Assembly: GCA_018436925.1 (NCBI GenBank) | Contig: JAHDKI010000020.1 | Location: forward strand, 89,501-153,500 | DNA from: Syntrophaceae bacterium | Lineage (GTDB): Bacteria; Desulfobacterota; Syntrophia; Syntrophales; Smithellaceae | Length of the DNA: 64,000 nt | Reading direction: 5' to 3' | Shown here: one piece after another, positions 4,514-55,089 of the stretch | How positions within the stretch are numbered: position 1 is the first letter of the stretch | How the letters are laid out: the number at the start of each line of letters is the position of its first letter | Notes under the pieces: generated by a model | What the model saw: the letters and a program-made list of their open reading frames with translations, nothing else | What the model was told of the DNA's origin: nothing | Databases searched by the model: none | Translations under genes and position numbers: made by a program

Positions 4514-5689
4514 ATGTCACAGACAGTCACCCCTTTTCTCGAGATGTCCCAGGCGATTATGGAGGCGGGCGGCGAGGCGCTGAAAAAATGCTATCAGTGC
4601 GGCACCTGCTCGGGAACCTGCCCCTGGACGCCGATCACCCATTTCAATATCCGCAAGCTGGTGCGTTACGGCCAGCTGGGCCTCGACGGCATTGAGGAGT
4701 TCATGTGGGGCTGTTCCACCTGCAAATTCTGCGTGGACCGGTGTCCCCGCGGCGTGGAACTCATCGACATCGTGACGGCCATCCGAAATGTTTACAGCGG
4801 CGGCGGCATGCTGCCTCAGAGCCTGCGGGCGTTTGTCGGGTCCATGTCGGCGCGCGGCAACCCCTGGTCGGGCGATCAGGCCAAGCGCAACGACTGGGCC
4901 AAAGACCAGTATCCCCTTTATGCACCGGGAACGGAGTATCTGTTCTGGACCTGCTGCACGGTGTGCTACGATCCGCGCAATACGAAGCTTGCGAAAGCGA
5001 CGGCGGAAATTCTCAAGCTCTCCGGCGTCAGTTGGGGCATTCCTTCGGTCGAGGTCAACTGCTGCGGAGAGAGTTTGAAGAAAGTCGGCGATCTGGAATT
5101 GTTCGACCGGTTGAAAAGCGCCAATCGGGATTACTTTAAAGCCAACCAGGTATCGAAAATCATCACCGTGTCGCCCCATTGTCTGGCGGCATTCAAAAAA
5201 GACTATGGCGAGGATTATGAGGTCTTGCATTTCAGCGAACTCATCGCCCGCCTTGTGCAGGAAGGAAAGCTCTCGCCTAAAAAGGATCTGGGCGGCGTCA
5301 AAGTCACCTATCACGATCCCTGTTATCTGGGCCGGCACAGCGGCGTTTACGACGCGCCGCGGGACGTTTTACGGTCCATCCCGGGCGTGGAGTTTGTCGA
5401 AATGGAACGCAGCCGCGAGCAGAGTATGTGCTGCGGCGGCGGGGGCGGCGGGCTTTGGATGGAAAAGCTCAAAGGCGAACGGTTAAGCGATTTGAGAATT
5501 GAAGAAGCAATGGCGACCGGTGCGACCGTTTTGGCGACTGCCTGCCCCTATTGCATCACCATGTTTGAAGACAGCGCACGGACGCTCAACGTTGATGAGC
5601 AGATCAAAATCAAGGATGTGACCGAGCTGTTTTTAGAAAGCCTGGGCATCAACATTGATGAGCCGGTTGTCGACACCTGCGCCCTCTAG
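4514..5689 (+). CDS. Fused HdrC-HdrB (HdrD-like) iron-sulfur subunit
   Basis: A 391-residue protein that joins an HdrC-type ferredoxin domain to HdrB-type CCG domains. The N-terminus has CYQCGTCSGTCP and CSTCKFCVDRCP. Two CCG domains follow: TCCTVC...NCCGES...SPHC, and DPCYLGRHSG...MCCGGGGGG...ACPYC. The second resembles HdrD and GlpC-type Fe-S proteins. It begins operon 2 directly ahead of hdrA and takes the place of separate HdrB and HdrC. The likely role is the terminal electron-accepting or disulfide-reducing site of the complex; the substrate is unknown. Whether a noncubane cluster forms in both CCG domains cannot be decided here. Confidence 0.85.
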   Translation: MSQTVTPFLEMSQAIMEAGGEALKKCYQCGTCSGTCPWTPITHFNIRKLVRYGQLGLDGIEEFMWGCSTCKFCVDRCPRGVELIDIVTAIRNVYSGGGMLPQSLRAFVGSMSARGNPWSGDQAKRNDWAKDQYPLYAPGTEYLFWTCCTVCYDPRNTKLAKATAEILKLSGVSWGIPSVEVNCCGESLKKVGDLELFDRLKSANRDYFKANQVSKIITVSPHCLAAFKKDYGEDYEVLHFSELIARLVQEGKLSPKKDLGGVKVTYHDPCYLGRHSGVYDAPRDVLRSIPGVEFVEMERSREQSMCCGGGGGGLWMEKLKGERLSDLRIEEAMATGATVLATACPYCITMFEDSARTLNVDEQIKIKDVTELFLESLGINIDEPVVDTCAL

Positions 5690-5767
5690 GGCCCCGAAGG
5701 CCAGAAAAATGTCAATGACGTCCTGTCGCGGCAAGGCGTTGAGAAGTCAGGAAATCTAGGAGAGACT

Positions 5768-7717
5768 ATGAGCAGAATTGGTGTTTTTGTTTGCCACTGC
5801 GGTTTGAATATTGCCAAGACCGTTCGCGTCAGCGAACTGGCGCAGTTTGCCGCCACGCTGCCGGACGTGGTGGTGGCGAAAGACTACAAATTCATGTGTT
5901 CCACGCCGGGCCAGGAGATGATCGCCAACGACATCAAAGAACACCGGCTCGACCGCGTGATCGTCACCGCCTGTTCGCCTTTGATGCACGAGCAGACCTT
6001 TCGCAAGGTCCTTTCGGCCTCCGGCCTCAATCAATACCTTTTGACGATCGTCAATATCCGTGAACAGGTCTCCTGGGTCACGCACGACATCGACGAAGGC
6101 ACGGCGAAATCCAAAGCGCTGCTAAACGGCGCCGTCAACCGGGCCAGGCTTCTGGCGCCTTTGACCTCTCGCGTGATTGACGTGAACCCGGATGTGATGG
6201 TCGTGGGCGGCGGGATCGCCGGCATTCAGGCGGCCCTGGAACTTGCCAATACCGGACGGAAAGTCTATCTTGTCGAAAAGAACTCCACCATCGGCGGGCA
6301 CATGGCCCAGTTTGACAAAACCTTTCCCACGCTGGATTGCTCCGCCTGCATTCTCACGCCCAAAATGGATTCCGTGATGCAAAACAAAAACATCACGCTG
6401 ATGACATCCTGCGAAGTGAGCGAGGTCAAAGGGTATGTCGGCAACTTCGACATCACCGTGAAACAGAAGGCGCGTTACGTCGATCACGACAAGTGCAACG
6501 CGTGTCTGGCCTGCACGGAGAAATGTCCGGGGAAGGGCGTCTCTGAATGGGACGAGGGGCTGGTCAAAAGAAAAGCGATCTATATTCCCTTTCCGCAGGC
6601 CGTGCCGCAGAAACCGATCATCGATCGCGACGCCTGCACCTATTTTATCAAAGGCAAATGCCGTCTGTGTGAAAAGGTCTGCGAACAGAAGGCCATCGAT
6701 TTCGAACAGCAAGACACCTTCTCCACCATGAAAGTCGGCGCCGTCATTGTGGCCACCGGCTATGATCTGATGGACACCAAGCCCCTGGTGCAATACGGGT
6801 ACGGAAAGTACCCCGGCGTCTATAACGCTCTCGAAGTGGAACGGCTTTTCAATTCCGCGGGCCCCACCGGAGGCAAGGTGACAATGCGCGACGGCAAGGA
6901 ACCGCAGGCCATCGCCATTTTGCACTGCATCGGCAGCCGGGATAAAAACAACTACGAACACTGCAGCCGGGTGTGCTGCATGTATTCGCTCAAATTCGCC
7001 CATCTGTTCAAAGAAAAAACCTCGGCCGACGTCTATCAGTTCTACATCGACATGCGGGCCGCCGGGAAAGGCTATGAAGAGTTTTATAACCGCATCATTG
7101 AAGAAGACGTGAAATTCATCCGCGGCAAAGGCGCGCGAGTGGCCGAAAGCGCCGATGAACCGGGCCGTCTGATTGTGGAAGCGGAAGACACGATCACCGG
7201 AAAGTTTATCAAACTGCCGGTGGATATGGTCGTGTTGTCGCCCGCGATGAAGCCGCGCGCCGATTCCAAAGACCTAGCGAGGCTCTTTAATCTGAGCACG
7301 GACAAGTACGGCTTCTTCATGGAGCGGCATCCGAAGCTTGCGCCTTTGTCCACCATGTCGGAAGGGATTTTTATCGCCGGGGTTTGCCAGAGCCCGAAAG
7401 ACATTCCGGATACGGTGGCGCAGGCCAACGGCGCGGCGGCGGAAGCCCTCACCATCGTCGTGAAAGACAAAATGGAGCTTGAAGCCACCACCGCCATGGT
7501 GAATCCCGCCTCGTGCTGCGGTTGTCAGAACTGTGTCCGCGTGTGCCCCTATGGCGCGCCGTTCTTTAAGGAAGACAAAGGCGTTTCGGAAATCAATGAA
7601 GCCCTGTGCAAGGGCTGCGGTCTTTGCGCATCGGTCTGTCCGTCGTCGGCGATTATCGCCAGGCATTTTACAAATGAACAGGTCTTGGCGGAAATGGAAG
7701 GCCTCATGGAGTTTTAG
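5768..7717 (+). CDS. hdrA: HdrA, flavin-containing core of heterodisulfide reductase
   Basis: A complete 649-residue HdrA. It has an N-terminal domain with VCHCGLNI, an FAD Rossmann motif (VVGGGIAGIQAA, about residue 145), the DCSACILTPKM cysteine group, two central 4Fe-4S motifs (CNACLACTEKCPG and CRLCEKVC), and a C-terminal ferredoxin pair (CCGCQNCVRVCP and CKGCGLCASVCPSS). HdrA is the site of flavin-based electron bifurcation in methanogen Hdr; the same role here is inferred. The ATG follows TAGGAGAG. The cysteine that is selenocysteine in some HdrA proteins is ordinary Cys here. The next gene, flxD, lies 231 bases away because of an inserted palindromic element. Confidence 0.95.
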   Translation: MSRIGVFVCHCGLNIAKTVRVSELAQFAATLPDVVVAKDYKFMCSTPGQEMIANDIKEHRLDRVIVTACSPLMHEQTFRKVLSASGLNQYLLTIVNIREQVSWVTHDIDEGTAKSKALLNGAVNRARLLAPLTSRVIDVNPDVMVVGGGIAGIQAALELANTGRKVYLVEKNSTIGGHMAQFDKTFPTLDCSACILTPKMDSVMQNKNITLMTSCEVSEVKGYVGNFDITVKQKARYVDHDKCNACLACTEKCPGKGVSEWDEGLVKRKAIYIPFPQAVPQKPIIDRDACTYFIKGKCRLCEKVCEQKAIDFEQQDTFSTMKVGAVIVATGYDLMDTKPLVQYGYGKYPGVYNALEVERLFNSAGPTGGKVTMRDGKEPQAIAILHCIGSRDKNNYEHCSRVCCMYSLKFAHLFKEKTSADVYQFYIDMRAAGKGYEEFYNRIIEEDVKFIRGKGARVAESADEPGRLIVEAEDTITGKFIKLPVDMVVLSPAMKPRADSKDLARLFNLSTDKYGFFMERHPKLAPLSTMSEGIFIAGVCQSPKDIPDTVAQANGAAAEALTIVVKDKMELEATTAMVNPASCCGCQNCVRVCPYGAPFFKEDKGVSEINEALCKGCGLCASVCPSSAIIARHFTNEQVLAEMEGLMEF

Positions 7718-7719
7718 GT

Positions 7720-7842
7720 ATGACGTTTTAAAAATCCCATATGCTGCGTTGCGCTGCGTTCGCGTTGCTGCGGCCTACGGCAAAGTAGGCCTCGCGCCCC
7801 GATACTCGCGCGCCTTGCCTCTGGAATTTTTCTTAACGTCAT
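7720..7842. repeat. Nested palindromic element (REP/MITE-like) inside operon 2
   Basis: Imperfect terminal inverted repeats (TGACGTTTTAAAAATCC at 7721-7737 against GGAATTTTTCTTAACGTCA at 7823-7841) enclose a GC-rich core. The core contains a perfect 7-bp hairpin, GGCCTAC/GTAGGCC (7772-7778 and 7785-7791). The element begins three bases after the hdrA stop and has no coding capacity. The structure suggests a mobile, non-autonomous palindromic repeat. No second copy was recognised in this window. Confidence 0.6.
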
Positions 7843-7948
7843 TAAAAGACCGTGTAGAAAAAGGTCTGTCGGGCGCCACGCATCGGGGGCACTTTTGAAC
7901 GACCTGAATTGAAGCTATAAGGTTTGTTTATAAGAAAGGATAATTTTC

Positions 7949-8362
7949 ATGTCATTTGAACCGAAGATTCTGGGCATTGCCTGCAACTGGTGCACCTATA
8001 CCGGCGCGGATCTGGCCGGAACGACAAGATTGCAGTATCCGCAGAACCTGCGCGTGGTCCGTGTGATGTGCTCCAGCCGAATCAATCCGTCGTTCATCTT
8101 CAAGGCCTTTCAACTGGGCGCCGACGGCGTGCTGGTCGGCGGCTGCCATCCGGGCGACTGTCATTACAACACCGGCAATCTTTACGCCCGCAGGCGGCTG
8201 GCCGTCACCAAGAAGATTCTGGAATTTTCCGGAATGGAGCCGGGGCGATTCCGCGTGGAATGGATTTCCGCTTCCGAAGGCAATAAATTTGCCGAGGTGG
8301 TGAGAGAGTTCACCGAAGAGATCCGTAATCTGGGTCCCCAGACCAAGTTCAAGATTTCATAG
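7949..8362 (+). CDS. flxD: FlxD / MvhD-family hydrogenase iron-sulfur subunit
   Basis: A 137-residue MvhD-family protein. It shows the family motifs NWCTYTGAD near residue 13, MCSSRINP near residue 51 and GGCHPGDCHY near residue 75, whose cysteines bind a 2Fe-2S cluster. MvhD passes electrons from a donor module (hydrogenase, formate dehydrogenase or Flx) to HdrA. No hydrogenase gene is present here, so the donor is most likely FlxABC. The start has the ribosome site AAGGA at 7936-7940. It follows hdrA across the palindromic element and precedes flxC by 17 bases. Confidence 0.92.
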   Translation: MSFEPKILGIACNWCTYTGADLAGTTRLQYPQNLRVVRVMCSSRINPSFIFKAFQLGADGVLVGGCHPGDCHYNTGNLYARRRLAVTKKILEFSGMEPGRFRVEWISASEGNKFAEVVREFTEEIRNLGPQTKFKIS

Positions 8363-8379
8363 TAAATCCGGGAGACAAT

Positions 8380-9246
8380 ATGGCAACGAGCTTTAAGCAA
8401 ATTGAAGAAAATCTGAAAACCGAAGCCGGAAAGCTTCTGGACGCGGGCAAAGTGTCGATGGTTCTGGCCTACGGCAGGGGCTATGATGAAAAGCATCCGC
8501 TTCCCTATGTCGCCAGAAGCTTGGCGGATGTGGACGGCATGGTTTTCAATGAATACTGCACGGCGAATTTGGCCCGTTATCTGGTCCGATACCCGCGCGG
8601 CACCAAAATCGGCATTGCCGCAAAAGCGGCCGACAGCCGGGCGGTGATCCAGCTTATTCAGGAAGACAAGGTCAAACGCGATGACCTCGTGATTCTGGGC
8701 ATTCCGGTTTACGGAATGAAAAATGCGAAAACGGATGAAGCGATCGACGCAAAAACGACCTGCGGCCTGTATAATCCCGTCATTTACGACGTTCTGTTGG
8801 GCGAAGAAGTGCACGGCCAGCCGGTTTTATCGCCGTATGAGGTTCTGGAAAAAGTCGAAGCGATGGGCCAAGACGAACGCTTTGCCTTCTGGAAAAAAGA
8901 GCTCGACCGCTGCATCCGCTGTTACGCCTGCCGCAAGGCCTGTCCGATGTGCTATTGCGATCCGTGCTTTATCGATCAGAACAAGCCCAAGTGGGGGGAA
9001 AAGTCGCCGGAGACGGGCGGAAACCTGATGTATCACTTGACGCGCTTTCATCATCTGGCGGGCCGCTGCATCGACTGCGGCGAGTGTTCGCGCGCCTGTC
9101 CTGTGGATATTCCTCTGTACTTGTTCCATAAAAAAGTGGCCAAGGAATGCGAAGAGATGTTCGGCCAGGCTGCCGGCATGAGCATTGACGAAAAACCCGC
9201 CCTGATCAATTTCCGGGTGGAGGATTCAGATAAAATTCTGGAGTAA
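8380..9246 (+). CDS. flxC: FlxC-like 4Fe-4S dicluster protein, second copy
   Basis: A 288-residue paralogue of the truncated gene at the window start. The N-terminal FrhB-like part has FNEYCTANLARYL and VILGIPVYG, and the C-terminus has two cluster motifs (CIRCYACRKACPMCYC and CIDCGECSRACPVD). The DCCVTC group of copy 1 is replaced by a single Cys (KTTCGLYNP), so this copy may bind one cofactor fewer. It sits between flxD and flxB, separated by 17 and 11 bases, in a tightly packed operon. Its role as an electron relay between FlxAB and HdrA is inferred from the Flx-Hdr system known from Desulfovibrio. Confidence 0.85.
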   Translation: MATSFKQIEENLKTEAGKLLDAGKVSMVLAYGRGYDEKHPLPYVARSLADVDGMVFNEYCTANLARYLVRYPRGTKIGIAAKAADSRAVIQLIQEDKVKRDDLVILGIPVYGMKNAKTDEAIDAKTTCGLYNPVIYDVLLGEEVHGQPVLSPYEVLEKVEAMGQDERFAFWKKELDRCIRCYACRKACPMCYCDPCFIDQNKPKWGEKSPETGGNLMYHLTRFHHLAGRCIDCGECSRACPVDIPLYLFHKKVAKECEEMFGQAAGMSIDEKPALINFRVEDSDKILE

Positions 9247-44666: not shown

Positions 44667-46289
44667 CTAATCCAGCGTGTATCCGGTCCGTCCGGCCATA
44701 TCCGGATTGCACGAGCCGCTTCCGGCCAATGGATGCGGGCAGGTGTATTTTGTGTATCCCGGGCGTGGCGTGTCCGAAATAAAATCCCGTCCATCAACGA
44801 CGTGAAACTGCTGCCAATTTGTGCCTGTGGGGCAGGCGCCGGCATAGGAACCCGTGCAGCAGGAATAGGGAACCCCCGCCGCTGTGCACGCCATATTGTC
44901 GCTGTTGTTGTGAAGGTAGAAACGGTTGGGATACATGGTGTCCGTGCTGCATGTACTGCCCGGGCATTGTGAATCGGAGGTACAGGTGTCATATTTATTC
45001 GAACCGCCCAGGCAGTTTCGACCTGATTGATTATTCCAGGCATAAAGCGGATCAACCTCCTGCGAATGACCGCTGCCTAGAGTGCCGGTCATCGTGCCGG
45101 CGCCTGTCTGATCCAGGCATCGGTAACCGTCAACGGCGTTTCCGTGCGCGGCATTGTTCACATTCGTATCGTAAACACTCGATCCGTTGCAATCGCCGAA
45201 ACCGTCCTGCGAACCGATGCAGTTGCCGATTCCGGGGCCGGTGCAGCAGACGGCAGGCGCGCCCGCGCCCGTGCATTGGGAATTCTGCGTGCAGCCATTG
45301 TCAAACCAGCTTCGGCGGTTGTCCAGCACAACCGCCCCCCGTTCCGGCAGCCATTGCGACCACGGTCCTGATACAACATTGCCGGTAATCACATGCGAGC
45401 CGCCGCGCAGCGATAAATAGGATGTGAAAGTATTGCTCACGGACCGGTTAAAACGATTGTTGTAAATTTCATAAGAACGGGTTGCGCGAACGGATTTTTG
45501 GCAGGCCGAGTGAGCCATAATGTAGGCATCGTTAAACGTGTTGTAGCGGATGACGGCGCGAGCGCCGTTGTTGGAGTCCACACTGTTGTGGAAAACACCG
45601 GCGACGTCGGCCATCAGAAATGTGTTGTTTTCCAGAAAAATGGCGTTGGCCGTTCCCCATTGCGGCGCGCTGGTCCAGGAGTGATGTGCCGCCGTGCCGC
45701 CGCCTGCAAATCCGATCTGGCAATAGTTGAAAACGTTTTGATCGATCAGACCGAAAAGCGTCCATGTGCCGACATTCGACAGAGTTGCCACCGATGTAAT
45801 ATCGGCGTAATCCGTTCCCTGAAAAACGTTATGATCGATTCGCCAGCCGCTGCCTGCGCCGCTGATCTGAAAAAGCCGTCCTTGCGGCGCGGAAAGCTTC
45901 AAACCGGAAAGTCTGAAGGGAAAAGCGCCCGTCGAAGATCCGGTGCTGACGTCAAACAGGGGCACGGTTCCGTTACCGCTGATCGTCGTTGTGTCAGGCC
46001 CATTGCCGATAATGCGGATTGCTTTGTTGACGGAAAGGGTCTTTGCGCGCCAATTGGCTTCGCCGGCCGTAATATTAATCGTATCGCCTGGAGAAGCTTG
46101 CGACACGCAGGATGCGACCGATTCGTAATCCGGCGTCGAGGTCCAGGCGGGGCTTGCGCCCGAACAAGACGGCGTATAGTCCGGCGACGATGGGAAAAAC
46201 CCGCCTGATTCGCCGCCCCCGCCGCCGCAACCATTCAGGGCCAATATGCCTAAAACCGCCCAAAGCAAAAATCTGCATGCCGAAGACAT
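44667..46289 (-). CDS. Right-handed beta-helix lipoprotein, family A
   Basis: A protein of about 540 residues with a lipoprotein signal (LNGC, then a run of glycines), so it should be attached to a membrane by lipid. The mature part opens PSCSGASPAWTSTPDYESV and holds parallel beta-helix turns (IRIIGNG, IDHNVFQG, ENNTFL, IYNNRFN). Several cysteine clusters (CCTGPGIGNC, CTSDSQCPGSTC) suggest disulfides and export. It ends with YTCPHPLAG and CNPDMAGRTGY, shared with the paralogue at 49973. It may bind or cut a polysaccharide; no catalytic motif was recognised. ATG 46289 has AGGAG nine bases upstream; ATG 46295 is only three bases from it. Confidence 0.8.
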   Translation of the reverse strand: MSSACRFLLWAVLGILALNGCGGGGGESGGFFPSSPDYTPSCSGASPAWTSTPDYESVASCVSQASPGDTINITAGEANWRAKTLSVNKAIRIIGNGPDTTTISGNGTVPLFDVSTGSSTGAFPFRLSGLKLSAPQGRLFQISGAGSGWRIDHNVFQGTDYADITSVATLSNVGTWTLFGLIDQNVFNYCQIGFAGGGTAAHHSWTSAPQWGTANAIFLENNTFLMADVAGVFHNSVDSNNGARAVIRYNTFNDAYIMAHSACQKSVRATRSYEIYNNRFNRSVSNTFTSYLSLRGGSHVITGNVVSGPWSQWLPERGAVVLDNRRSWFDNGCTQNSQCTGAGAPAVCCTGPGIGNCIGSQDGFGDCNGSSVYDTNVNNAAHGNAVDGYRCLDQTGAGTMTGTLGSGHSQEVDPLYAWNNQSGRNCLGGSNKYDTCTSDSQCPGSTCSTDTMYPNRFYLHNNSDNMACTAAGVPYSCCTGSYAGACPTGTNWQQFHVVDGRDFISDTPRPGYTKYTCPHPLAGSGSCNPDMAGRTGYTLD

Positions 46290-46351
46290 AAGCATTTACT
46301 CCTTGACGTCGATATTAAGCTGTAGAGGTGTTTTGATTTCTGAGCGTTGCG

Positions 46352-46567: not shown

Positions 46568-46597
46568 TAAAAAACCCGCGGCGTTGGCCGCGGGTTC
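46568..46597 (-). terminator. Rho-independent terminator of the PEP-CTERM gene at 46618
   Basis: AACCCGCGGC/GCCGCGGGTT (46573-46582 and 46587-46596) with loop GTTG. In the minus direction it is followed by a T-tract (the A-run at 46569-46574). It lies 21 bases beyond the stop. Confidence 0.9.
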
Positions 46598-46617
46598 TTA
46601 ACGGGAATGATATTGAA

Positions 46618-47247
46618 CTATCTTCTGGCTCTGTGCGCCACGACTCCCAGGCCCAGCAAACCAAAGCCCAGAAGCAACAGCGACATGGGTTCGGGAACCA
46701 AGACCAGCTGGCTTTGTTTCTTCGTTCTGCCGCTGTACAGATTAGCTACGCGAACCTGTCCGATGCCCTGCCAGTTTGCCGAGTTCGCTTCGGCGATCAA
46801 TTCATTTGCTCGTGTGACCATGGCGCTTGTTACGCCCTGGCCGCTGTAGTTTTCATTTTCAAGAATCCAGATAGCCACCTGCAGAGCGCTCATTTCAGCA
46901 TTCGTAAGGCTGTAAGCGCCATACCTGAACTGTGTGTACAAATAAGCGGTCTGAGAGCTGATCGGATCGCCGATCACGCCGGGCTCGACTTCATAAGCGC
47001 CGCCCGTGCCGCCTGCGGTTGCGTAAGTGGCAAGAGTATAACTATACGGTGTGTTTAAAGTAACGTATTCGTTCGTTTCCAGACAAAACGTTCCGAATGT
47101 GCCGAAATCATTTGTGGTTGCCCAGAACATGCCGGCGTTTACACTACCGGGGCCGTCGGTCAAAGTCATCGTATCGGCCATCGATGCTGAACTGAATGCA
47201 AAAAGCATTACAACCGAAATTAAAAGAGCTGCCAGTTTTTTCTTCAT
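46618..47247 (-). CDS. PEP-CTERM protein with a predicted thioester domain
   Basis: A 209-residue exported protein: signal peptide (cut after SMA), a single globular domain, and a PEP-CTERM tail at 184-209 (VPEP, hydrophobic helix, HRARR). The globular domain has GTFCLETNEY with Cys55 and SALQVAIWIL with Gln123, which match the two signature motifs of surface thioester domains (C followed by hydrophobic and polar; LQ-x-A-I-W). If correct, Cys55 and Gln123 form a reactive internal thioester that can bond covalently to an amine on another surface. A sigma-54 promoter lies upstream and a strong terminator downstream. Confidence 0.8.
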   Translation of the reverse strand: MKKKLAALLISVVMLFAFSSASMADTMTLTDGPGSVNAGMFWATTNDFGTFGTFCLETNEYVTLNTPYSYTLATYATAGGTGGAYEVEPGVIGDPISSQTAYLYTQFRYGAYSLTNAEMSALQVAIWILENENYSGQGVTSAMVTRANELIAEANSANWQGIGQVRVANLYSGRTKKQSQLVLVPEPMSLLLLGFGLLGLGVVAHRARR

Positions 47248-47315
47248 TATTCATCCCCTTTTCATTTGAGCTTATGTCGGTTTCTTTACTAACAATCGTA
47301 TCGGCCAAGGAGATT

Positions 47316-47330
47316 GCAACAGCCATGCCA
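47316..47330 (-). promoter_or_regulatory. Sigma-54 promoter of the thioester PEP-CTERM gene
   Basis: Minus strand TGGCAT-N5-TTGC with GG at 47329-47328 and GC at 47317-47316, an excellent RpoN match. The start point would be near 47304, about 57 bases before the ATG. Confidence 0.8.
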
Positions 47331-47713: not shown

Positions 47714-48358
47714 ATGAAGAAGAAAATATTGTTATTTTCGTTAATTTGTTTTCTTTCACTGGCCGGCTATGCGTATGCAAACTTTATCAGCAACCCCGGA
47801 TTTGAGTATTACAGTTCATCGGGGAATTTTGACAATTGGACTGAAGGCGGATCGGTTTTAACTAATCTCGATCCGCAGTTTGTTTACGAGGGCAACGCCT
47901 CGGCGTTTTTAAGGATTCCGGGCGGGTCTCTGTATCAGTCGTTCGTCATTACCGAAGGCAGCTTACTGTATTACGGCGCCTGGTTCAAAATCGCCACCGA
48001 TTCCTTCGAATCAAACTGGGACCAGATTCAAATCAGCCTTCAGATCGACAATCTGCAGTGGACAACCATCGGAGGTTCAGTTGGGAATATTCTTAGCGCT
48101 TCAGACTTTACCTGGTATGCCTCCTACCAAAGCTACTTTAGTGACTGGTTCCTGATTGCCAACACCATCGACGTGGCCAGTGTTCCGATGAACGCCAACA
48201 TCAACATCAACGCCCAGAACACCGACACGGAGCTGACAAAAGTATTTGTCGATAATGCATTCGCTTTGTCGGTCTCGGTGCCGGAGCCCGCATCCCTGAT
48301 CCTGCTGGGCTTGAGTTTGCTTGGTCTTGCCGGTGTAAGGCGTCTGTTCAAAAGGTAA
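47714..48358 (+). CDS. PEP-CTERM protein, jelly-roll type
   Basis: A 214-residue exported protein with a signal peptide (cut after AYA) and a beta-rich domain that begins FISNPGFEYYSSSGNFDNWTEGG. This NPGFE...W pattern is typical of carbohydrate-binding-like jelly rolls. The C-terminal PEP-CTERM signal spans about 189-214 (VPEP, hydrophobic segment, RRLFKR). It probably sits in the extracellular matrix. It is transcribed away from the thioester PEP-CTERM gene, and a strong terminator follows. Confidence 0.85.
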   Translation: MKKKILLFSLICFLSLAGYAYANFISNPGFEYYSSSGNFDNWTEGGSVLTNLDPQFVYEGNASAFLRIPGGSLYQSFVITEGSLLYYGAWFKIATDSFESNWDQIQISLQIDNLQWTTIGGSVGNILSASDFTWYASYQSYFSDWFLIANTIDVASVPMNANININAQNTDTELTKVFVDNAFALSVSVPEPASLILLGLSLLGLAGVRRLFKR

Positions 48359-49972: not shown

Positions 49973-51691
49973 TCACAAGTTGTAACCGCTTGTGCCGGCT
50001 ACATCAGGGCTGCAAGTTCCGGTTAATCCGGCCAGCGGATGCGGGCAGGTGTAAGGTTCAAAGTGTTTGGTCCATGTATTGGTTGCGGTGCATTTATATA
50101 AAGTTCCCAGGGGGCCGTCATTCGTTGCGAAATAAGCCGTGTTCACCGTACAGGTTGCGGGTCTGGCGGATAGCAGGCCTCGGCCGACGCCGGACGTGCT
50201 GTCAAAGGCGCTTGTGAAATTGTAATAGTCACGATTGGCCTTGACGTGATTCTGCGAATCATTAATGACATGAAACGGCACTTCGGTTGTTCCGTCTGCC
50301 CGCTTGTTGTTCCAGGCATAAGCCGGCATCAGGGATTGCTGAGATGGCCGCCCCAGAATATACCCGTTTCCTGATTTCGGGCCCGTGTAATTAAGGTCGA
50401 TATCAATGGTATCAGAACCGACCGACAGAATAGGAAACGTACCTCCGGAAAATCCTTCGCCACAGCCGGATAAGCCGGATGAACTAACGATCGTGGCTTT
50501 ATTCTCGGTGGATAAATCATGACCGGTTGCCGTGAGACGGACTTTCCCTGCGCTGTTATTCGTGCAGGACTCGATCGTGAAAGTCCGCCAGTGCGCCGTA
50601 TCGTCACCCCGGCCGATCTGATCGCGGCAGGGATAACCAGCCTCGTCGCCCACACCTTCATTTCCATCCCAGTAAGAGGTTCCATCGCATTTTCCGCTGA
50701 AATCGGCCGTCGCGTAGCAGCGCACATTATCCAGTGCGATGCCGTAATTGGTCCAGTTGCCTAGGATGTTGTTGTTAAATACCAGGCCCGTGCCGGCCCG
50801 GATGCGGAACGGATAATAATGCCCAGCTCCTTGGTTGTCGATAATATTATTATAAACCTCCCATCTTTGAACCGCCCGGTTGACCCACTGGACGGAATGC
50901 GCCTCGATATAGAGAGCCGAGTTGCTCTGAGTGGTGCCAGAAGTGATAACGTCGTTATAGCGGAAAACGTAGCGTATGCCATAATTGCCGTCGATGACGT
51001 TGGCCGTGCCGTTGTTTGTTCGATTGAAAGAATTTCCTTCAAAAAACACAATTCCGTCTTCGCTTCCCATCGTTTGCGCTTCCGCCCAGACAGCGCTTTG
51101 CGAATTCATTCCTGTGCCGCCACCCGTTACAAAAACTGAGGTATTTATAAATCTGCATGAATGAACCACACCGGTCGGGTGAGCGCCGGAGCGGTTGACA
51201 ACAAGAGCGCGTGTTGACGCCTCGGTTGTTGTAAACTTCACGTGTTCCACAGCAAAACCCTGGCCATCGACGATTATGACGCCCGATGTTGCATCCACCG
51301 TCAGATCAGCAAATCGCGAGCCACCCGTTCCGAGGTGAATCACATGCGTCATCCAACTGTCCGGCAGACTGGTGCGGATGATTGTTTCATCAATACCCGC
51401 GCCGACGATAGACAATTGCTTTGCCCCGAGCGAAATTCGCTCGCGCCAAGTGGCCCGACCCGCCAGAATATGAATGGTGTCGCCGGAAGAAGCCTGAGAA
51501 ACGCAGGATGCCACTGATTCGTAATCCGGCGTGGAAGTCCAAGATGGGCTTGCGCCGGTGCAGGAAGGTGTGAAACCGGGTGACGATGCCGGGACAAACC
51601 CGCCGGAATCGCAACCGCCCCCGCAACTCAGAAAAAAAGCACTTAGGCAAGTCAAAGAAAGCAACCCGAATGTCCTTTTCAAGGATATCAT
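49973..51691 (-). CDS. Right-handed beta-helix lipoprotein, family A paralogue
   Basis: A 572-residue paralogue of the protein at 44667: lipobox FLSC, glycine/cysteine-rich start, PSCTGASPSWTSTPDYESV, a parallel beta-helix with turns like RFADLTVDA, FRYNDVI and VYNNIIDN, and the C-terminal YTCPHPLAG with CSPDVAGTSGY. It is expected to be lipid-anchored and exposed. GGAGGG precedes the ATG. A likely promoter, TTGACA at 51780-51775 with a weak -10 TAGGGT at 51757-51752, lies upstream. Polysaccharide binding or lyase activity is possible but no catalytic residues can be assigned. Confidence 0.8.
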   Translation of the reverse strand: MISLKRTFGLLSLTCLSAFFLSCGGGCDSGGFVPASSPGFTPSCTGASPSWTSTPDYESVASCVSQASSGDTIHILAGRATWRERISLGAKQLSIVGAGIDETIIRTSLPDSWMTHVIHLGTGGSRFADLTVDATSGVIIVDGQGFAVEHVKFTTTEASTRALVVNRSGAHPTGVVHSCRFINTSVFVTGGGTGMNSQSAVWAEAQTMGSEDGIVFFEGNSFNRTNNGTANVIDGNYGIRYVFRYNDVITSGTTQSNSALYIEAHSVQWVNRAVQRWEVYNNIIDNQGAGHYYPFRIRAGTGLVFNNNILGNWTNYGIALDNVRCYATADFSGKCDGTSYWDGNEGVGDEAGYPCRDQIGRGDDTAHWRTFTIESCTNNSAGKVRLTATGHDLSTENKATIVSSSGLSGCGEGFSGGTFPILSVGSDTIDIDLNYTGPKSGNGYILGRPSQQSLMPAYAWNNKRADGTTEVPFHVINDSQNHVKANRDYYNFTSAFDSTSGVGRGLLSARPATCTVNTAYFATNDGPLGTLYKCTATNTWTKHFEPYTCPHPLAGLTGTCSPDVAGTSGYNL

Positions 51692-52143: not shown

Positions 52144-55089
52144 ATGAAAAGAACCACTTTAAACAATTTTGGCATTGCCATTCTCACCTGCCTTCTCATA
52201 TTGCTTTTCTCTCATGCAGCATTTTCCGCAGAATACTATATTGCTCAAACGGCGGCCGGATCGGCCGATGGCTTAAGCTGTGCCAACGCAAAAGCCGTCA
52301 ACTGGAACTGGACCAGTCCAAACGTTGTTGAAGGCGACACAATTAATCTTTGCGGTACTTTCACATCCACATTGACCATTCCCAGAAGCTTTAATGCACC
52401 GGGCGTGACGGTGAAGTTTCTGCCGGGCGCAAAGTTCAGTGCCCCTTATTGGGGTATAAACGGCGCAATTCGAATAAGCAGTAGAAACTATATAACCATT
52501 GATGGGGGAAACGTTGGTATTATTGAAGCAACGGATAACGGAACGGCAAAGGCAAATCAACAAGATGGCAAAGGAATATACATCAGTGGTGGTTCGAACA
52601 TAACCGTTACGGGCTTAACAATAAAAGACCTGTATATTCGAACACCGGATTCCGATGACCCAAGAAAATATCAAAAGGCGATTCAGGTCGAAAATACTGA
52701 TAGTGTCAACTTGAGTAATCTAGTTATTAACGATGCTTATTATGCAATCTATGCGTATGCGTCATCAGCCAGTAAGTCAGTACTGAATGTATACAAGAAT
52801 GACATTTCTAGAGTATCTACGGGTATCATTGCAGCTTTAGCCGGGGCTGTTAATTATTCCGATGTCTCAATATATGACAACAAAATTTATGACTTCTATG
52901 TTTGGGATGGCTGCTGGAACAGTTGTTCGGTATGGCATCACAACGATGGAATTCACCTATGGGGCAATTATTCCAATAATACGCTTGGCCCTGTGTACAT
53001 CTATAATAATGAAATAGGCGGTGATTTCGGCGCGCGGACGACAGCGCTGATTTTTACTGAAGATTATGTCACACCGATTACTATTTACAATAACGTGCTA
53101 TATACAACTGCTGAAAAAACGACTGATGGATACATTACCCTCGCGTCACGAAAAGCAGGTGCAGTTGCTAATGTTTATAACAACACTATCAAAGGCGCTG
53201 CTTCTAATAATACCGGTGGTAATGGCATCTATATATCTAACGCAAATGGTTGGCTGGTCGATATAAAAAACAACATTATTAAAGACTGTTATATCGCAGT
53301 ATATGATAGCCAAGGCATAAGTGACATTAAGACGGATAACAATATCTTTCACAATATCGGTACTGTGGGGCGTAGTGGCAGTACATGGTATTCCAGTATT
53401 TCATCATGGCAGTCCTATCTAGGCGGTTGCCCCGGAAGCGGTAATGAATGCAACAGCCAGGTTGCAAATCCTCTGTTTGGATCCTCATCGGACTTTAGAC
53501 TGCAATCCACTTCACCCGCCATTGATGCGGGAATCAACCTTGGGGCATTGTTTGCAACCGATAAAGCCGGAAATATTCGTTCCGGTTACTGGGATATCGG
53601 CGCCTATGAATACACGACCGGCGGATCCTATACCCACAGCCTGTCTGTCATGAAATCCGGTTCGGGAACGGTCAGCGGTTCTTACATAAACTGTGGAAGC
53701 ACGTGTTCAAACACGTATTCCAGCGGCGCAACGGAAACGCTTGTTGCCGTTCCCGCAAGCGGTTACACCTTTACCGGCTGGTCCGGGGCATGCAGCGGCA
53801 CGGGAACCTGCAGCGTAACGCTTAATGAAAACAAAACCGTAACGGCGACCTTTGCCGCCATTCCGAATTACACGCTAAGCGTCGGCAAAAACGGCACTGG
53901 ATCGATCACCAGTAACCCATCGGGAATCAACTGTGGATCAACCTGTTCCTACAGCTACCCGCAAGGCGAGCTGGTTACGCTGAGCGCCAACCCCGGTGCC
54001 GGCTACACCTTCTCCCACTGGTCCGGGTCGTGCTCTGGAACAGACACCTGCATGGTCACGATGAACTCGGCCAAATCTGTAACGGCTAACTTCGCAGTGA
54101 TTCCTGTTGTGCCAAGTAATTATTCGCTTACAGTCAGCCTTGCCGGCACCGGCAGCGGCTCTGTCAGCAGTGCGCCTGGCGGCATCAACTGCGGAAGCGC
54201 CTGTTCGGCTGAATATTCCGACGGCGCAAACGTTTCGCTTTACGCAACGGCCTCGGAAAACAGCACCTTTGCCGGTTGGTCCGGCGCGTGCACGGGTTCG
54301 GGCTCTTGCAGTGTATCGATGACTGAAGCGAAAACCGTAACGGCAACCTTCACAGCGGCGCCGGTTGACAACGATAAAAAAACCTTTACCGTCATTAAAA
54401 ACGGCAAGGGCCAGGCCAAGGGCCTGGTTAAAAGCGTAAGCATTGCTGTCGCCGGTGTGAGCCTTGCCTATTCACCTGAGACGGAAGCAATCGATTGCGG
54501 CGATGTTTGTTCCGCTGAATACCCGGAAGGTGTCACCGTTACACTCGAAGCGCTGACCACTGAAGACGGCTATACCTTCGCCGGCTGGTCGGGCGCCTGC
54601 ATGGGTTCGGGTGTTTGCACGGTTACAATCAATGACACAACCTCTGTTACAGCAACGTTCAATAAAACGACCAGCGGCGTTTCATTTGCGGGTGGCGGAG
54701 GAGGAGGCGGTGGCGGCGGATGCTTCATCGCCACTGCGGCTTTCGGATCGTACCTGAACCCCCATGTGAAAGTGCTGCGCGAATTCCGCGACAAGGTGCT
54801 GATGCAGAACGGCCTGGGCAAGCGGTTTGTAAAGCTTTACTACCGACATTCACCGCCCGTTGCCGACTCGATCGCACAGAACGAAACCCTGCGGGCGCTG
54901 GTTCGCCTGGCGCTGACCCCTGTGGTCTATGCGGTGGCCTACCCGAAACAGGCAGGCGCTGCTGTTCTGATTCTTCTTCTGGCGGTTTTCCTGGTGGTGC
55001 GGCGAAAGCGAATGGTAAAGCCCGCCCACGACATGAGCGACACCTATTTTGAACACGGGCCCAGAAAGGCTTTTGTGAGGGTGAGATAA
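52144..55089 (+). CDS. Beta-helix surface protein with Cys-containing repeats and CFI-box C-terminus
   Basis: A 981-residue exported protein. Signal peptide (cut near FSA); a right-handed beta-helix (about 30-495, family B, starting [13 protein letters not shown]); four repeats of about 75 residues (about 500-840), each with a GINCGS..C or similar pair and a [14 protein letters not shown]-like core; a run of ten glycines; then the [11 protein letters not shown] box, a conserved REFRDKVL...LYYRHSPP segment, a membrane helix ([14 protein letters not shown]) and a basic tail. The last part is the CFI-box C-terminal domain, probably an anchoring signal. The leader hairpin suggests translational control. 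The first half is more AT-rich than the second. Confidence 0.85.

Follow-up and report, generated by a model that had tools for sequence, protein, structure and literature searches.

The extracellular role of PEP-CTERM proteins is largely unknown, and the gene described here raises the question of whether one of them, in an environmental Gram-negative bacterium, attaches covalently by means of a thioester domain (TED), and if it does, which two residues form the bond. The window, that is, the whole 64,000-nucleotide stretch of DNA that was analysed, encodes a 209-residue protein that appears to carry the self-reactive thioester of Gram-positive attachment proteins. If this is true, thioester attachment, which the papers cited here report in Gram-positive bacteria, extends to environmental Gram-negative phyla; moreover, because a defined reactive bond is visible by mass spectrometry, the bond could be trapped, the adduct found and the target named. 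The original prediction described a PEP-CTERM protein with a likely covalent thioester adhesin domain, and our results support this interpretation in part. The gene lies on the minus strand, a point on which the original prediction is silent, and it and its parts are the following.

46618..47247, minus strand: whole gene, a PEP-CTERM protein with a predicted thioester-domain fold (open frame, AlphaFold, fold search)
47176..47247, minus strand: signal peptide, residues 1-24 (from the sequence; boundary SMA/D drawn by eye)
46702..47175, minus strand: predicted TED core, residues 25-182 (AlphaFold core model and Foldseek)
47083..47085, minus strand: codon of C55, the predicted thioester Cys and the only Cys of the protein (invariant in alignments A1, 16/16, and A5, 20/20)
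46861..46902, minus strand: predicted helix 2, residues 116-129, with Q123 and W127 in a TQxxPhiW-type motif (alignment, published motifs, model)
46699..46725, minus strand: predicted last strand, residues 175-183, corresponding to strand Q of TEDs (AlphaFold model)
46714..46716, minus strand: codon of Q178, the predicted thioester Gln (20/20 in A5; equivalent to Gln261/247/267 of SfbI/PnTIE/CpTIE)
46621..46698, minus strand: PEP-CTERM tail, with VPEP from residue 184, a hydrophobic stretch and a basic end (TIGR02595 above cut-off)
47315..47330, minus strand: sigma-54 (-24/-12) promoter-like site, TGGCATGGCTGTTGCA (pattern match; ends 67 bp upstream of the start codon)
46570..46599, minus strand: hairpin followed by a T-run directly past the stop codon, a likely terminator (MFE -25.3 kcal/mol, z -4.97)

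The protein combines an N-terminal signal-like stretch, a single cysteine (C55, within TFCLE) and a PEP-CTERM tail, with Q178 lying seven residues ahead of PEP. The tail passes the NCBIfam model TIGR02595 (18.7 bits, cut-off 16) and falls just below the threshold of Pfam PF07589 (19.5 bits, cut-off 20.7); together with the signal-like N-terminus, the TIGR02595 match bears out the assignment to the PEP-CTERM proteins. A protein search of its own genome yielded no second full-length copy, only six other places that match from query residue 162 onward, and a profile built from alignment A4 found 11 other places there, each matching from position 171 onward only.

Conservation was examined in two samples. 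Alignment A1 contains 16 proteins, namely the window protein and 15 from 99 relative genomes, chosen from 33 places found; 15 places whose match is confined to the PEP-CTERM end, from query residue 162, were left out, as were L026 and L029, both of which lack the Cys motif. F54, C55, E57, Q123, A125 and W127 are each invariant (16/16), and Q178 is present in 15 of the 16, the exception being L017, which lost its frame upstream of that point. In this protein, which is the same as that of L044, the TED is intact up to strand P, and the frame is lost before the predicted bond Gln and the sorting tail. The second sample consists of 21 loci from named genome contigs, fetched by a pattern around LQxAIW; they span Syntrophaceae/Smithella, Phycisphaerae and other Planctomycetota, Acidobacteriota, Verrucomicrobiota and the alphaproteobacterium Albibacillus, the phylum names being partly our own assignment from the record titles. 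Alignment A5 comprises 20 cores from five phyla with signal peptide and tail removed (the window protein and 19 of these loci, seven of which, L036, L040-L043, L045 and L046, are the same proteins as rows of A1); L044, which loses its frame ahead of the last strand, was kept out of A4 and A5, and L052, with no Cys region in frame, out of A5. C55 and Q178 are both present in 20/20 of these cores, and 18/20 have no other Cys. The fetch pattern covered LQxAIW and so accounts in part for the invariance that residues 122-127 show in A3-A5; C55 and Q178 are free of this bias. Tandem neighbours, which were found by BLAST and not by the pattern, have the Cys and the helix Gln/Trp in all seven examined (one of them, from L036, is the A1 row L028) and the C-terminal Gln in all six that are not cut short. 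A Phycisphaerales genome (L038) holds a tandem array of five TED-like genes, one of them cut short (141-1004, 4577-5071, 5504-6475, 6581-7414 and 7767-8543), and pairs of such genes also occur in L036, L037 and L048. A scan of the genome contigs with the single protein matched 47 stretches, none of which is a relative.

AlphaFold modelled the full-length protein (21 rows) with pLDDT 86.2 and pTM 0.80, and the core alone (20 rows) with pLDDT 91.7 and pTM 0.88. Three modelled helices (98-108, 116-129 and 141-156) precede two strands, 165-172 and 175-183; Q123 and W127 belong to the middle helix and Q178 to the final strand. TEDs have this same topology of three helices and then two strands, with the Gln on the last (Miller 2018), and the agreement supports a TED fold. 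In Foldseek searches against the PDB, TED chains took ranks 1-17 for the full-length model (best E 8.4e-5), and ranks 1-20 for the core were all TEDs or TED-bearing proteins (best E 5.8e-4), with moderate TM-scores (0.43-0.59 by query for the core model); among the matches listed, the rows after the TED chains had a probability of at most 0.08. VIA-align likewise recovered the TED beta-barrel and three-helix fold in 13 TED entries, at Z 8.3-11.2, rmsd 3.1-4.7 and 133-165 aligned residues for the full-length model (next best Z 3.0) and at Z 8.1-10.1, rmsd 2.9-3.8 and 124-146 aligned residues for the core (next best 2.7). Among PDB entries, TEDs were found by fold search only: phmmer with the window protein gave nothing against the PDB sequences, and the A1 profile matched 14 of them at E of at least 0.036, no TED among them, the top matches being antibody chains aligned at the signal peptide.

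Which glutamine would form the bond can be read from the published motifs and from this fold. Walden 2015 gives the thioester Cys motif as [YFL]C-Phi-zeta, the thioester Gln motif as Phi-Q-zeta-Phi-Phi in a beta context, and a third, helical motif, TQxx-Phi-W, which is incompletely conserved even among known TEDs and whose Gln is dispensable for the bond; known TEDs bond through the thioester Gln to a target lysine (Walden 2015). In solved TEDs, strand C carries the Cys, strand Q carries the bond Gln, and helix 2 carries the helical Gln and Trp, which form hydrogen bonds to the Cys backbone (Miller 2018, PMC6194298). F54-C55-L56-E57 fits the Cys motif, as originally proposed for Cys55 in FCLE. 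LQVAI, which had been proposed as the thioester Gln motif, is present in the sequence but corresponds to the helical motif: L122-Q123-V-A-I-W127 fits TQxxPhiW on helix 116-129 except for T replaced by L, and V124 is not hydrophilic, unlike the zeta position of Phi-Q-zeta-Phi-Phi. If LQVAIW is the helical motif, then the bond Gln is to be expected near the C-terminus, where Q178 is the conserved Gln. The residues around Q178 (KQSQL) depart from strict Phi-Q-zeta-Phi-Phi, and Q178 has the position and the invariance of a thioester Gln. In VIA-align, residue 182 of the core pairs with SfbI 265, PnTIE 251 and CpTIE 271; since the thioester Gln of these proteins (SfbI 261, PnTIE 247 and CpTIE 267) lies four residues earlier, each falls on residue 178, an equivalence that presupposes a gapless alignment over the last five residues, and the same arithmetic on the full-length model gives 178, 178 and 177 for CpTIE, PnTIE and SfbI. 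When residues 25-182 were shuffled 20,000 times, the Cys motif arose in 3.1% of the shuffles, QxxPhiW in 6.6% and both in 0.2%, and strict Phi-Q-zeta-Phi-Phi, absent from the real core, was present in 24%; with such frequencies, the motif letters by themselves are modest evidence, and it is conservation and fold that carry the case. The thioester domain thus holds, and the bond probably uses Q178 rather than Q123.

At the level of sequence profiles, Pfam TED (PF08341) gives the window protein 11.6 bits (E 0.4, residues 101-156), short of its cut-off of 22, so the TED assignment rests on fold and homology and not on a Pfam match. Two relatives, L020 and L025, pass that model (28.3 and 26.1 bits, cut-off 22) over a span that includes the Cys motif. 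The phylum was sampled with a draw of 395 genomes, of which 15 match the core profile and eight match Pfam TED. Ten of the 12 Pfam-TED places in this draw are frames of 235-323 residues with the Cys motif, Q-x-A-[IL]-W, the C-terminal Gln and a sorting tail, nine of the tails with PEP and one with VPVPAA; L086 and L093 were not counted as of the same build. L086 has its PF08341 match (39.3 bits) inside a 1090-residue frame of the same phylum, which is not a short sorted TED, and its locus reads in part as Cys-rich repeats. When the window family was aligned with the ten PEP-CTERM TEDs, tails removed, hhalign gave a probability of 95.6% (E 1.1e-8, 86 columns) and paired the Cys residues with each other and likewise the helix motifs, the match spanning the Cys to helix 2 and stopping short of Q178. 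Against the HMM of the window family, nine of the ten outscore the best of 1000 shuffles. The PF08341 search matched nothing in the protein's own genome, a negative of no weight since it matched nothing in any control genome either. The Pfam-TED relatives and the hhalign result together indicate that sorted TEDs above the Pfam threshold exist in this phylum and that the window protein represents a divergent branch of them; along with the structural matches, this kinship gives good support to the thioester domain of the original prediction.

The sorting machinery that such a tail calls for is at hand: the protein's own genome has one exosortase (TIGR02602, 125.7 bits, cut-off 105.55) and one PrsR (TIGR02915, 640.7 bits, cut-off 502.6) above cut-off, which lie on the same contig (C15) about 2.2 kb apart. 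In the phylum draw, exosortase PF09721 is found in 16 of 21 TED-positive genomes and in 142 of the 374 others (Fisher p 8.6e-4, with kinship ignored), and five of the 21 have no exosortase match. A sigma-54 motif stands upstream of most proteobacterial PEP-CTERM genes, in company with PrsR and PrsK (Haft 2006, PMC1569441). Here, TGGCATGGCTGTTGCA is the only match to TGGCAYN5TTGCW in the window (0.20 expected; at least one in 18 of 100 shuffles). A -24/-12 site that has its GG and GC and fits at least 9/12 consensus positions lies 35-69 bp upstream of 12 of 15 Desulfobacterota-side TED genes and is absent from the other three, and eight of ten genes from other phyla stay below 9/12; among the 149 open frames of a mixed control set, 13 have such a site, and up to eight of these 13 may be TED genes themselves. 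The hairpin after the stop codon was not among the calls of a pattern-based terminator scan, which named another one, outside the gene (47490-47471, minus strand). With the sigma-54 site and the terminator hairpin, the gene appears to form a single-gene unit within the PEP-CTERM regulon. Elsewhere, two TED genes adjoin PrsK and PrsR, both above cut-off (L036), and one lies upstream of PrsK (L046); for the kinases near L041, L042, L044 and L045, the 25 best families listed in each case do not include PrsK, and no conserved partner gene is general to the TED loci.

A second PEP-CTERM protein (47714-48358, plus strand), divergent from the TED gene, has no other Pfam match and no strong sigma-54 site upstream of it, the best one reaching 8/12. 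The PEP-CTERM genes are flanked by two related, Cys-containing lipoprotein-like proteins (44667-46295 and 49973-51691, both minus strand), which share SPxWTSTPDYESVASCVSQAS and have no Pfam match at 0.01. Farther on, a protein of 981 residues (52144-55089, plus strand) with divergent InlB B-repeats, Listeria-Bacteroides repeats and a weak beta-helix match is a possible surface protein.

The reading that we favour, with a probability of about 0.72, is that the gene encodes a stalkless, exosortase-sorted TED with a Cys55-Gln178 thioester that bonds covalently to the matrix or a neighbouring surface. We infer its fold, sorting route and residue assignment from sequence and predicted structure, and the formation and reactivity of the bond purely from homology. 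The signal peptide would direct export, and the PEP-CTERM tail would hand the minimal, single-domain TED to exosortase. After export, the domain would fold, and Cys55 on strand C and Gln178 on the last strand would join, releasing ammonia, to form a thioester with Q123 and W127 of helix 2 packed next to it. An amine, or some other nucleophile, on a matrix component or a neighbouring surface could then open the strained bond, leaving the protein covalently attached through the side chain of Gln178. Without a stalk, the reactive strand would continue straight into the sorting tail. The target is a guess on our part: as these are environmental bacteria, the cell's extracellular matrix or an adjacent cell of an aggregate is the most likely one. 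The adhesin function and the covalent bonding to target or matrix in the original prediction are inferences.

The alternatives differ in how much of this scheme they change. A thioester between C55 and Q123, as first proposed, would be compatible with the invariance of Q123 (16/16 in A1) and with a TED fold that places Q123 near C55; we nevertheless rejected this pairing on the published motifs and the helical position of Q123, and regard it as very improbable, given that the helix-2 Gln of solved TEDs, to which Q123 corresponds in the model, hydrogen-bonds the Cys backbone and is dispensable for the bond (Walden 2015; Miller 2018), and that it is the last strand that supplies the bond-forming Gln; Q178, which sits there, matches Q123 in conservation. 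The domain might instead have the TED fold with a thioester that is not formed or not used, the Cys and Gln being structural or the Cys a free thiol. The case made here is one of sequence and predicted fold, which leaves room for this reading, but we consider it unlikely: with C55 as the sole Cys in 18/20 cores, an internal disulfide is excluded, and the invariance of the two bond residues and of the helix Gln and Trp across five phyla would be hard to explain otherwise. Furthermore, CpTIE C138A retains its structure (Walden 2015), so the thioester is unnecessary for folding.

The same chemistry could also serve an adhesin for one type of partner cell, such as a syntrophic methanogen, and not for cross-linking the matrix of the cell that makes it. 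Smithella is a syntrophic partner of methanogens, an identical protein ties a same-family relative to Smithella sp. SCADC, and the known TEDs are adhesins. Against this, the protein has no stalk with which to reach another cell, and its relatives occur in Planctomycetota, Verrucomicrobiota and Acidobacteriota; exosortase substrates have been tied to exopolysaccharide, exosortase being thought to move them toward the exopolysaccharide layer (Haft 2006, PMC1569441), and floc formation in Aquincola involves an RpoN-dependent PEP-CTERM protein (PMC9850573). We regard the partner-cell adhesin as a tentative second choice and a matrix cross-linker as our first choice for the function of the Cys55-Gln178 TED. 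A bolder extension, which we put forward as a speculation with low odds, is that exosortase-sorted TEDs are widespread in Gram-negative bacteria as a system for building the matrix covalently. As the reactive Gln lies on a strand that runs into the tail, anchoring, cleavage or pulling of the tail could switch the thioester on; bound covalently through its C-terminus by exosortase and through Gln178 by the thioester, one and the same protein would cross-link the matrix.

In the open-licence literature, we found no paper that links thioester domains with PEP-CTERM or exosortase, although database annotation may already mark such proteins. The part of an isopeptide-bond survey that mentions a thioester domain and exosortase does not describe an exosortase-sorted TED; one PF08341 paper reports TEDs with SpaA stalks in Firmicutes and many Actinobacteria, and another treats TED clusters of fibrillar adhesins.

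Compared with the known systems, the window protein appears nearest to a class I TED in minimal form. With the class I TEDs (CpTIE, SfbI, PnTIE, Cpa; PF08341), it shares the predicted fold (VIA Z 8.1-10.8), the Cys motif, the helix-2 Gln and Trp, the Gln on the last strand, a signal peptide and a C-terminal sorting signal; it differs in sequence (7-18% identity in the fold searches), in having an exosortase-type tail in place of LPXTG, and in having no stalk or isopeptide domains. Where class I TEDs have helix alpha0 (strand D to helix 1), neither model has a helix; a beta-hairpin is modelled there, in the least certain part of the models (pLDDT about 70-79). With the class II TEDs (BaTIE, SaTIE, EfmTIE86), it shares the upper-lobe fold, and BaTIE gives the best VIA Z (11.2 and 10.1); class II is defined by a beta-sandwich insert of about 75 residues between helix 3 and strand P (Miller 2018), whereas the window protein has eight residues between helix 141-156 and the strand at 165, so the insert is absent. 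The same-phylum PEP-CTERM TEDs above the Pfam cut-off (L087-L092 and L094-L097) have the Cys motif, Q-x-A-[IL]-W, the C-terminal Gln and the tail in common with the window protein, whose sequence is too distant for the Pfam TED model to recognise. With other PEP-CTERM/exosortase substrates, it shares a tail above the TIGR02595 cut-off, an exosortase and PrsR in the genome, and a sigma-54 site in a long upstream region of what is apparently a single-gene unit; but whereas most such substrates have little homology to known proteins (Haft 2006, PMC1569441), this one is predicted to have a known reactive fold.
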